DNA of 64,000 bases from assembly GCF_024706985.1 (NCBI RefSeq), contig NZ_JAMCCX010000072.1, positions 1 to 64,000 on the forward strand. Direction: 5' to 3'. The translations under genes and the position numbers were made by a program. Under the pieces are notes generated by a model that was not told where the DNA came from, did no database searches, and saw only the letters and a list, made by a program, of their open reading frames with translations. This DNA is from Alicyclobacillus sp. SP_1. Its GTDB lineage: Bacteria; Bacillota; Bacilli; Alicyclobacillales; Alicyclobacillaceae. Shown in pieces: positions 2,316 through 6,648 of the stretch; position 1 is the first letter of the stretch; every line of letters starts with the position of its first letter.

Positions 2316-2942
2316 TCAATACGTTCCCGCCTTTGACAGGTCTCGAGGAATTCCTTGCATGCCAGGCTGCCAGTCGGCCGGCGCTCCAAGGCCTGTTTTT
2401 CGATGAAATTGAATCGCTTCCATCATGCGAACTATCTCTTTCGCGCTGCGGCCAACGTCTTTCGGATAAATCAGTTTAGCAAGGATGATTCCTTCCGGAT
2501 TAATGATGACCGTAGCGCGAAACGCTGTACCTTCTTTGGTATCAAGGACGCGGTAGTCTCGACAAATCGATTGGTTATGATCACTAATCAGTGGATAGTG
2601 AACATTCTGCATTAAGGGAGACGTTTCACGGAAGACCTTGTGACTGTAAATGCTGTCCGTACTAATGCCGAGCACCTGAGTGTCTAGCTCGATAAGACGC
2701 GAATAAACGGCAGCGACCGCTGCCAATTCCGTCGGTCAGACAAAGGTGAAGTCGCTGGAATAGAAAACAAGTGCCACATAATGGCCACGCAAATCTTCCA
2801 GGTTAACGCGCTTCGATTTACCGCGAACGTAGGCTTCAGCGACGAACAAGGGGGCAACGTCATCTCGACTGGCACAAAAGTCGTTGGCAGAGTCTTGCTG
2901 ATGGCGTCTGTCGTTCCAAGTTTCATGGTCTCGGGAATCCAT
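2316..2942 (-). CDS. peroxiredoxin (AhpC/TSA type), candidate selenoprotein read through UGA at 2736-2738
   Basis: Thiol/selenol peroxidase of the AhpC/TSA family, 208 residues if UGA is read as selenocysteine. The frame gives FYSSDFTFV, UGA, PTELAAV. In the family the residue at that place is the peroxidatic Cys of the DFTFVCPTE motif, so the proposed Sec is residue 69. Homology continues on both sides: AEAYVRGKSKRVNLEDLRGHY before it, and GISTDS, FRATVIINPEG with the active-site Arg142, and DWQPGMQGIP after it. The ATG at 2942 follows GGAGG by ten bases. Oddities: the usual Pro seven residues before the active site is Ser, and the C-terminal resolving CPA is replaced by APA, so a resolving thiol would have to be Cys23 or Cys127, or come from outside. 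A SECIS-like hairpin follows the UGA. The alternative is a recent nonsense mutation. Confidence 0.75.
2701..2729 (-). promoter_or_regulatory. candidate bacterial SECIS element inside the peroxiredoxin gene
   Basis: Downstream of the UGA (2736-2738) the minus strand can fold into a 6-bp stem GGCAGC/GCTGCC (2719-2724 with 2709-2714) closed by a GGTC tetraloop (2715-2718). Below it is a second stem, GAAT/ATTC (2726-2729 with 2701-2704), with unpaired T residues between the two stems. Seventeen bases separate the UGA from the loop. Bacterial SECIS hairpins bound by SelB have a short stem, a loop with G at position one or two, bulged U, and a UGA-to-loop distance in this range. The E. coli fdhF element also shows GGUC in its loop. 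The structure was found by eye and not by energy calculation. Confidence 0.65.
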
Positions 2943-3087
2943 AACTAAAATCCCTCCATCCGATATCGAGGGATACATACGCAACCACATCAGTTTGTAT
3001 TCCAAATGTGTCCAAGCATACTCTAAACTGACTCAAGTAGATTCCAGTTTTTATGACAAAAACGTTTGATGAAAATCAACAAAACAC

Positions 3088-3174: not shown

Positions 3175-6100
3175 TTGAGCAAGCTCGGAAAACTGATAGC
3201 TGGCTCTTTTGGGGCCACATTGCTCGCCTCGCTAGCTTTACCTCCGACGGCGTTGGCAAGCACAAACGCGCATCCTGCACCCATTCCCAACACACAAGCC
3301 ACTCCCTATTGGACAGTAGGGCGCAACGACGCAATTGTTACCGCCGATGATACCGCTTCCAAAGTGTGGTTTGCGCTGCAACGTGGTTCGATTGGGGAAA
3401 CTTTCTATCCTACCGTTAATGTCGCAGACAGCTCACAATTTCAATTTGTCGTGGTACACAATGGGCAAGTAATGCCAGAAACGACTTCCACCACCCACTC
3501 TTACTCCCTGCTCGCGACGAACGGCTTAGCTGTCAAAGTAGTAAACACCGCAAAGAATGGGTCTTTTGCACTGACGCATATCTACTATACAAACCCGAAC
3601 AACAGTTCCATTGTTGTCCGGACATGGTTCACTGTCCTTAAAGGGAATCCACAGCACTATCAGCTTTACGTCTTCAGTCATCCTCAACTGGACAATCAAG
3701 GAATCAATAACTTGGGCTGGACTGCGACAGTCGGCAACCAGAGCATGTTGGTCAGTCAAAACAATACCGTTTCTGCAGCAATTGCCAGTAAAGACGGTTT
3801 TCTCATGACGTCGACTGGGTACATGGGAAGTAACGATGGGATAACCCAGCTTGAGAAAACAGAAAAACTCATTCCCTATACATCCGCAACCGGTAACATC
3901 GGTCAGATAGGTCAACTCCCGCTGGTTCCGATGAAGAACGCGCACAGTCCACTACCGAAACCACCGATTCCAGGGTCATCGCCCGCACTCATGCCACCCG
4001 TTTTGGCACCGAGTCCCGTACCGTCGCCACCACCGGGACCGTCGCCATTTGGTCCAAAGTGGCCGAGTGTCATCGCGAACCATACCAGCACAACCTACAC
4101 TTCGCAGGTCGTCCTCAGCTATGGTAGCAGTCCAACTCGAGCAGAGTCATCGGCTACAACCACGCTTCAGACACCGTGGTTGCCAATGTTGCAGCAATTC
4201 CAAGGACAGTGGGCGAGATATTTGGCCCCCTTGTACAAGCCTGTCGGATTGCCAGTCAAACTCCAAAATGAATATTGGCTGGCACTCATGACCTTGAAGG
4301 GTGCTGAAGACAAGACCTACCGCGGCGCGATGGCGGCATCGCTATCCACTCCTTGGGGCGAGGATGAGTCAGCCGTAAGCCCGTCTGTCACGGGCTACCA
4401 CATGGTCTGGGTTCGCGACGCATACCAGATGGCCTCTGCTTTTATGGCGGCAGGCGATATGAAAACTGCCCATCAAATCCTGAACTGGTTTTTCAACGTG
4501 GATGAAGAGCCCAATGGGAACTATCCACAAAACAGTTTTGTCAATGGAACACCGTTCTGGACCGGCCAAGAACTCGATCAAAACGGATTCCCGGTCATCT
4601 TAGCGTACCAGTTGAGAGACACCGGACGAAACGTCTACCTCAAACACATTCGTCCCGAACTGCGATACATCCTGAATCATGGGCCGTGGACAGATTTAGA
4701 CCGTTGGGAAGAGGCCAGCGGATTTTCTCCTAACACCATGGCCGTGGACATCGCTGCTCTCGCACTCGGAGCAGACATCGCACAAAAAGACGGTTATGCC
4801 TCCGACGCCGCTGTCTATCGCGGTGCCGCGACTCGCTGGCTAGACCACATTGAACAATGGACCGTGACCGACAACGGGCCGCTTTCAAGCAAGCCTTACT
4901 TTGTCCGCATCAGTACCGGGCCGAACGTCAATGGCAGCGCCCTACTGACCTTGGCCAATGGAGGTGGAACCTATCCACAAAAAGACATTGTCGATATGGG
5001 CTTTTTAAGTTTGGTGCGACTTGGACTTCTGTCTCCGGACAATACCGTAGTTCGTAACTCTTTAAAAGTCATCGACAAGACGATTGAGGTGCAAACGCCC
5101 AACGGACCAGGATTTTTCCGTTATAACCACGATGGATATGGAAACTATGCCGATGGAGCGCCGTATAACGGATCGGGCGTGGGAGGCTTATGGCCCGTGC
5201 TCGCCGGGGAGCGTGGTGAATACGAACTTGCCGCCAGACTGGACGGGGTTCGTACGGCACACTCGCCACTTTACTATCTGACCACGATGGATAACATGGC
5301 CTACGGACTGGGGATGATTCCCGAACAGGTATGGCCGTTTAACACGACCATTCCTGTATCGCCTCCGGGTACCAATCCGGCCGTCGCCAGTATTGGGTTG
5401 CGTCCTGGTGTTGCGACTGGATCGGCCGCGCCTCTGGACTGGGCGATGGCTCAATACGTCCGGCTAGCGGTCGACATTTCAAAACATCGTTTAGTTGACC
5501 AGCCGCGTGCCCTCAATCGGGAATTTGCTCATACGCCGAACGGTCGTGGACCGGGAATGCCACTAGGTCCGATGGAAGCCGCAGGCCCGCTAGCCTCAAC
5601 GCAGCCGCCTCTTGGACCCAAGCCGCCTCTTGGACCCAAGCCACCAGGACAGGCAGCACTTACGCTGACCGTGGCGTTCCCTAGCGGATCGAACACCATT
5701 TCCGTCCCGAAATCTGGACCTTACAGTGTCGACAGTGGCAACATGGTCGTATCTACCACGAAACCGACTTTGACAGGAACCACTACTCCGGGAGCAAAAG
5801 TGACAGTCGGAGTGGTCAACTCGTCGGGACTCACGAGCTCAACCGTCAGGGCGGACAGCAAAGGCGATTACAGCATCCCGATTCAGGTGTCGAACGACTT
5901 GAATATGGTTTACGTAGTCGCCCACCAAGCCGGACAAACGACCACGAAAACCTACGCTGTCACATATCAGCCACCAGCGTTGGCTGAATGGAGTAATTTA
6001 CCTTTCGATGATCGCGGTCCCGGATGGTACACCTATCCAACCGGCGGCTGGTATGTGCCTGGGATGCTCAGTATGAACGATGTCTCCGTGCGCACGAACG

Positions 6101-6648
6101 CCAGCCAAGACATCATCAACGTATCGTACGACGTGATGCACAACATCTACGGTGCTCCAAATGGATTCTCTACCAAGCTGATTGAGATTTACTTGGTGAA
6201 ACCAGGTTCAACGGCGACTTCCTCATCGCCCCTTCCCTACACGAACATCGGATTTGCGCAGGGCTCCGATTGGACGTATGCCCTCCAGGTGACCGGTTAT
6301 GGTTCCGACCTGACGAATGCCACAGGGGACGTTCTATCCAGCAACTTAGGTGTATCCGCGAATCAACTGACAAAAACAGTTACGATTCGGATACCGCAGA
6401 GCCTCGTTGGCAAGTTCTCTAAGGGCTGGGGACTCGTAGTCACGACTTTGTCTCAAGATGGCTATGCTCCCGGCCAGGTGCGCCCGATTGCGCAAACGGC
6501 TGGCGCATATAACTTTGGCTATGTGTACAACGATCCTAATGGGTACCCAACCAATGTCATGGACGTTCTCGTCCCTTCCGGAACGCCACAGGAAGCACTC
6601 GACTACTTGAAAGGCCCGATTGCGCTACACGCTGTGTTCATTCCTTGA
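3175..6648 (+). CDS. secreted GH15 glucoamylase / glucodextranase-like enzyme
   Basis: Extracellular glucan exo-hydrolase of glycoside hydrolase family 15, releasing glucose from alpha-glucans (starch or dextran-type). It is 1157 aa and starts at TTG 3175 after AAGGAG. A signal peptide occupies residues 1-29, ending ALASTNA. An N-terminal glucodextranase-like beta domain follows, then the (alpha/alpha)6 catalytic barrel with MVWVRDAYQ near 410, RWEEASGF at 510-517 (catalytic acid in the WEE pair) and PEQVWP at 716-721 (base Glu717). Linker PPLGPK repeats lie at 811-822, then an Ig-like module at about 830-930, and a C-terminal DOMON/glucodextranase-C-like domain from about 940. A Pro-rich insert at about 255-298 interrupts the N-terminal domain. 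It is monocistronic between its own promoter and terminator. Exact substrate linkage cannot be read from sequence. Confidence 0.92.
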   Translation: MSKLGKLIAGSFGATLLASLALPPTALASTNAHPAPIPNTQATPYWTVGRNDAIVTADDTASKVWFALQRGSIGETFYPTVNVADSSQFQFVVVHNGQVMPETTSTTHSYSLLATNGLAVKVVNTAKNGSFALTHIYYTNPNNSSIVVRTWFTVLKGNPQHYQLYVFSHPQLDNQGINNLGWTATVGNQSMLVSQNNTVSAAIASKDGFLMTSTGYMGSNDGITQLEKTEKLIPYTSATGNIGQIGQLPLVPMKNAHSPLPKPPIPGSSPALMPPVLAPSPVPSPPPGPSPFGPKWPSVIANHTSTTYTSQVVLSYGSSPTRAESSATTTLQTPWLPMLQQFQGQWARYLAPLYKPVGLPVKLQNEYWLALMTLKGAEDKTYRGAMAASLSTPWGEDESAVSPSVTGYHMVWVRDAYQMASAFMAAGDMKTAHQILNWFFNVDEEPNGNYPQNSFVNGTPFWTGQELDQNGFPVILAYQLRDTGRNVYLKHIRPELRYILNHGPWTDLDRWEEASGFSPNTMAVDIAALALGADIAQKDGYASDAAVYRGAATRWLDHIEQWTVTDNGPLSSKPYFVRISTGPNVNGSALLTLANGGGTYPQKDIVDMGFLSLVRLGLLSPDNTVVRNSLKVIDKTIEVQTPNGPGFFRYNHDGYGNYADGAPYNGSGVGGLWPVLAGERGEYELAARLDGVRTAHSPLYYLTTMDNMAYGLGMIPEQVWPFNTTIPVSPPGTNPAVASIGLRPGVATGSAAPLDWAMAQYVRLAVDISKHRLVDQPRALNREFAHTPNGRGPGMPLGPMEAAGPLASTQPPLGPKPPLGPKPPGQAALTLTVAFPSGSNTISVPKSGPYSVDSGNMVVSTTKPTLTGTTTPGAKVTVGVVNSSGLTSSTVRADSKGDYSIPIQVSNDLNMVYVVAHQAGQTTTKTYAVTYQPPALAEWSNLPFDDRGPGWYTYPTGGWYVPGMLSMNDVSVRTNASQDIINVSYDVMHNIYGAPNGFSTKLIEIYLVKPGSTATSSSPLPYTNIGFAQGSDWTYALQVTGYGSDLTNATGDVLSSNLGVSANQLTKTVTIRIPQSLVGKFSKGWGLVVTTLSQDGYAPGQVRPIAQTAGAYNFGYVYNDPNGYPTNVMDVLVPSGTPQEALDYLKGPIALHAVFIP
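5605..5640 (+). repeat. 18-bp tandem duplication in the GH15 linker
   Basis: Two identical 18-base units (5605-5622 and 5623-5640) encode a repeated PPLGPK linker hexapeptide between the catalytic barrel and the C-terminal modules. Perfect DNA identity suggests a recent slippage duplication. Confidence 0.9.

Follow-up and report, generated by a model that had tools for sequence, protein, structure and literature searches.

The first selenocysteine (Sec)-containing peroxiredoxin to be characterized came from a strict anaerobe, Eubacterium acidaminophilum. It is known as PrxU (Sohling et al. 2001, as cited in PMC13188914), and the 2026 review of Sec peroxiredoxins in which it is cited gives the active-site motif as PxxxTxxU (PMC13188914). 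Twelve Sec peroxiredoxins were counted in 2006 (PMC1794560), and 91, from 78 organisms, in 2016 (PMC5029168). A selenocysteine-containing PrxU is also reported to be up-regulated in the proteome of Sulfobacillus thermotolerans (PMC7409299), an acidophilic Gram-positive organism in which it is linked to oxidative stress; its likeness to the protein considered here is one of name only and not of compared sequences. Peroxiredoxins are also listed in a paper on a selenium-tolerant Bacillus (PMC11076775), of which UGA decoding is not the subject. We found nothing relevant in the literature on selenocysteine in Alicyclobacillus and, within incomplete coverage, no paper on the Bacilli clade described below, on its missing resolving Cys or on its N-terminal Cys. 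In RefSeq, an ortholog from Cytobacillus spongiae is annotated as one 'peroxiredoxin' CDS running through the UGA. Given that Sec peroxiredoxins are established and that this ortholog is already annotated, the finding reported here is therefore real, but not categorically new.

The gene lies in a stretch of 64,000 nucleotides from Alicyclobacillus sp. SP_1 (contig NZ_JAMCCX010000072.1), referred to as the window, and its features are collected in Table 1. The minus-strand frame reads DFTFV-UGA-PTELAAV and continues for 139 further codons to the terminal stop, which is also UGA; the internal UGA occupies the peroxidatic position of the motif DFTFVCPTE. With translation table 11, the gene is called as two same-frame ORFs of 89 and 136 aa, and this split, taken by itself, would suit a pseudogene, in which a recent nonsense mutation or a sequencing error had struck an otherwise normal AhpC gene at its Cys codon. 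Nevertheless, the Pfam AhpC-TSA match (residues 28-154) extends across the UGA with an E value of 8e-30 and 103.8 bits, against a cut-off of 26.

Table 1. Features of the Sec-peroxiredoxin locus, in window coordinates
Feature	Position	Strand	Details
Sec-peroxiredoxin gene	2316..2942	(-)	ATG 2940-2942, stop UGA 2316-2318; 208 residues, Sec at 69; orthologs known
In-frame UGA at the peroxidatic position	2736..2738	(-)	residue 69, probably read as selenocysteine
Bacterial SECIS-like hairpin	2709..2724	(-)	6-bp stem GGCAGC/GCUGCC, GGUC loop; overlaps codons Leu-Ala-Ala-Val-Ala-Ala
Shine-Dalgarno-like GGAGGG	2952..2957	(-)	9 nt 5' of ATG; basis: sequence
Cys23 codon	2874..2876	(-)	candidate resolving residue; basis: conservation only
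Ala187 codon	2382..2384	(-)	at the place of the Prx1/AhpC C-terminal resolving Cys (APADW versus CPANW)

The comparison with relatives bears most directly on the integrity of the gene. Orthologs are present in the genomes of six other family members (54-64% identity) and in two genomes of the same order (39-42% identity), each with only one stop, a UGA at the same codon. Similarly, all 80 of the nearest named loci carry UGA at the equivalent codon (76 were recognized by a TGA motif pattern and the other four, which read NFTFV, by eye); they include Alicyclobacillus, Bacillus, Mesobacillus, Cytobacillus, Neobacillus, Rossellomorea, Fictibacillus, Ammoniphilus and others, and every record is titled as one of the Bacilli or the Bacillota, with two exceptions (Chryseobacterium sp. 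ISL-80 and Pseudomonas sp. ISL-84), both probably mislabelled. When 399 genomes were sampled evenly across the class, 18 strong matches (E <= 1e-55) were obtained, each with exactly one TGA and none free of it; from these two surveys, therefore, no Cys variant of the clade has been seen. The Cys-type AhpC relatives belong to a separate clade, which reads CPANW. Moreover, the median dN/dS is 0.060 on the 3' side of the UGA (186 pairs) and 0.045 on the 5' side, values that point to purifying selection on both sides and to strong selection downstream. A nonsense mutation or sequencing error is thus refuted by the conservation of the UGA across independent genomes, and we regard its probability as negligible; despite the apparent stop, the gene is almost certainly intact.

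These results bear out several claims of the preliminary description, namely, that the UGA replaces the peroxidatic Cys of an AhpC/Prx1-type peroxiredoxin, that homology runs without interruption past it to a normal stop, and that the gene is a candidate selenoprotein. Of the observations that it had named as telling against the last of these (a genome devoid of sel genes, a Cys codon in the closest relatives, or a lack of in-frame conservation downstream in other strains), none was made: the alignment of homologs has UGA and no Cys codon in the closest relatives, the downstream frame is conserved in other genomes, and the sel genes are accounted for below. It had also considered a Sec form to be unusual in an Alicyclobacillaceae-like Bacillus, an expectation that the 80 loci contradict, Sec forms being common in both the Bacillaceae and the Alicyclobacillaceae.

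How the codon is decoded is a separate question, as readthrough of the frame is all that the sequence itself establishes: a near-cognate tRNA could insert Trp or Cys, or UGA could be generally reassigned. The 3.4 Mb assembly (about 100% complete) nonetheless encodes the complete Sec apparatus: SelA (E 1.4e-143), SelB above its NCBIfam cut-off, SelD above its own, and a tRNA-Sec with a UCA anticodon that exceeds the Rfam cut-off and is also called by ARAGORN. The selD gene itself contains a UGA, in the context KAGUGCK (C105:60558-61487). A second match to the selB family, on contig C15 and with one TGA, was discarded as an ordinary EF-Tu gene, the stop lying at one end of its open stretch. Across 37 genomes of the family, SelA (defined as true at E below 1e-100) occurs in 13, and these include all seven that have the Sec peroxiredoxin (p about 2e-4 by a hypergeometric count); a genome of the same genus that lacks SelA (G001) has no such peroxiredoxin. 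This restriction to SelA-positive genomes, the coincidence of the residue with the catalytic Cys position, and a covarying hairpin of bacterial SECIS type at the expected distance all argue against other modes of decoding, which we consider very unlikely.

The hairpin had been noted in the preliminary description as starting 17 bases after the UGA. Its presence stands, but the distance applies to the GGUC loop: the stem begins 11 nt, and the loop 17 nt, after the UGA. Taken singly, the window hairpin is a modest outlier (folding z -2.0, with 6 of 200 shuffles folding equally well), and no Rfam family matches it. Among 69 distinct sequences, 98.6% of the pair cells are standard, and three of the six stem pairs show changes on both sides. 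The central pair, which falls at the synonymous third positions of two Ala codons, is A-U in 39 sequences, G-C in 22, G-U in seven and U-A in one, with no mismatch in any of the 69. The ends of the loop switch together, being G..C in 58 sequences and A..U in 11 (giving a GGUC or an AGUU loop), whereas the GU between them (G22, T23) is invariant, consistent with bacterial SECIS elements. The covariation exceeds that in all 500 shuffles and in all slid controls, although the sequences are related, which overstates the significance, and the shuffle counts are therefore not to be taken as probabilities. As judged by comparison among relatives, chance is excluded as the origin of the hairpin.

The explanation that we favour, and hold to be very probably correct, is that the gene encodes a full-length peroxiredoxin of the AhpC/Prx1 fold, in which the UGA at codon 69 would be decoded as selenocysteine by SelB and Sec-tRNA(UCA), guided by the hairpin just 3' to it. 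The predicted fold model (pLDDT 87; poor at residues 1-20) has AhpC and Prx1-class proteins as its best structural matches, with TM values that, scaled by target length, reach about 0.95. Pro70, Glu72, Asp96, Arg142 and Trp191 are invariant in 29 sequences, throughout which position 66 is either Thr or Ser; the window protein retains Thr66 and the catalytic Arg142 of the active-site pattern PxxxT/SxxC(U). Peroxidase function would follow from membership of the family: the selenol would most likely reduce H2O2 or organic peroxides and be converted to a selenenic acid. We infer Sec insertion, this activity and the resolving thiol alike from sequence.

Two departures from the usual active-site arrangement had been reported as signs of a distinct subfamily, and both are present as described: the Pro of PxxxTxxC is Ser, and the C-terminal resolving Cys is absent (APA for CPA). 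The position of the Pro is variable within the clade (in 81 Sec forms: Pro 33, Ser 27, Ala 11, Gly 8 and Leu 2), and so Ser at this position does not define a subfamily. The loss of the C-terminal Cys, by contrast, is clade-wide: the residue preceding PxxW is Val, Ile, Ala or Thr, and never Cys, in all 82 readable Sec rows (a few loci being counted twice), whereas it is Cys in 18 of 18 readable Cys-type relatives.

With no resolving Cys at the C terminus, the enzyme would have to draw on another thiol for resolution: that of Cys23, within one subunit or from an adjacent one, or a thiol supplied from outside, for example by thioredoxin or bacillithiol. Of 81 Sec forms, 70 share an N-terminal Cys in a single aligned column, at a distance from Sec that is mostly 46 or 48 residues; the retention of this Cys within a poorly conserved N-terminal tail suggests a function, and argues against a one-selenol mechanism, in which bacillithiol/bacilliredoxin or thioredoxin would reduce the selenenic acid directly and Cys23 would have no catalytic part. 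On the other side, the Cys is missing from the remaining 11 forms (about one in eight), which weakens the case for it as a universal resolving residue, no Sec form with a readable site has the C-terminal Cys, and bshA is found in the genome. The one-selenol mechanism is consequently a real possibility, to which we would give somewhat less than even weight. Resolution through Cys23 would also be part of a broader proposal, that the Bacilli proteins form a separate, apparently Sec-only subfamily that gave up the C-terminal resolving Cys and resolves via the N-terminal one, and that the selenoproteome of this organism serves mainly peroxide defence; this proposal we advance tentatively, as possible but rather less than probable.

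With respect to the described families, the window protein shares its fold, active-site residues and length with AhpC (TIGR03137), a typical 2-Cys, Prx1-class enzyme, but has Sec in place of Cys at CP and lacks the C-terminal resolving Cys. It scores 148.2 bits against the AhpC equivalog, for which the curated cut-off is 272, and reads APADW instead of CPANW; against the PrxU equivalog (NF040737) it scores 145.5 bits, where the cut-off is 270. In a broad sense it would nevertheless be PrxU-like, given its predicted Sec at CP, its lack of the C-terminal resolving Cys and its SECIS-like element in the equivalent position. NF040737, which exceeds its cut-off in 48 of 398 genomes sampled from the phylum, belongs to the same Prx1/AhpC fold family, and its members resemble the Bacilli clade in three respects: the peroxidatic codon is UGA, the residue ahead of the C-terminal PxxW is not Cys, and an equivalent UGA-proximal hairpin has an AGUU or GGUC loop. 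In 17 of 30 NF040737 forms the N-terminal tail also has a Cys, in a GCxxP motif; its distance to Sec is mostly 73-74 residues, against 46-48 in the Bacilli clade. Some NF040737 matches (for example, G660:C55, G714:C1 and G754:C35) list additional in-frame TAA/TGA codons, which are perhaps match ends or decayed copies. In the tree, 30 Bacilli Sec forms make up one well supported group (100/97) and 30 NF040737 forms another (100/98); a constraint uniting the two as a single Sec clade is neither rejected (p-AU 0.38) nor shown, and long branches make the deeper branching order unsure. On this comparison of sequences, what is new is a Bacilli clade apart from clostridial PrxU and below the NCBIfam cut-offs, the members of which lack the resolving Cys at the C terminus and mostly carry a Cys in the N-terminal tail, with no Cys-for-Sec member here.

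A search of the genome with the AhpC model found four peroxiredoxins, none of them above the AhpC cut-off, and three of the four have UGA at the catalytic codon, as read in this one genome. Besides the window gene, there is a PrxQ/AhpE-like gene on the minus strand of C17 (169500-172000), with UGA in FYPLDWTPVUGAQ, and a BCP-type peroxiredoxin (C28:89394-89801), the peroxidatic codon of which is UGA (TPGUTKEAC), both likewise read in this genome only. On the same strand and 3' of the C17 peroxiredoxin is a GrdB-like gene (PF07355) that has UGA in LLTAGUPLC together with a GGUC hairpin; the locus also has a divergently oriented gene for a Fur-family regulator. Formate dehydrogenase is the commonest bacterial selenoprotein; the single strong match to it in this genome (C28:150784-152790) contains no in-frame UGA, and the selenoproteome as read includes three putative Sec peroxiredoxins, with no Sec formate dehydrogenase found in this genome.

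Around the window gene, a minus-strand ORF of 123 aa (1785-2156), which has no Pfam match, lies on the 3' side, followed by two adjacent minus-strand ORFs for small membrane proteins (833-1339 and 1201-1614), a pair that we take, by eye, to resemble tandem CrcB/FluC fluoride channels. Divergently, on the plus strand (3175-6648), there is a gene for a large glucodextranase/GH15-type enzyme.

Annotation with translation table 11 only would halve genes of this kind and miss what is likely to be an active enzyme. The Sec peroxiredoxins of the Bacillaceae and Alicyclobacillaceae form a large conserved clade, among the close members of which no Cys substitute was found, and they offer a tractable test both of why peroxide defence keeps selenium and of how a peroxiredoxin that lacks the usual resolving Cys is recycled.
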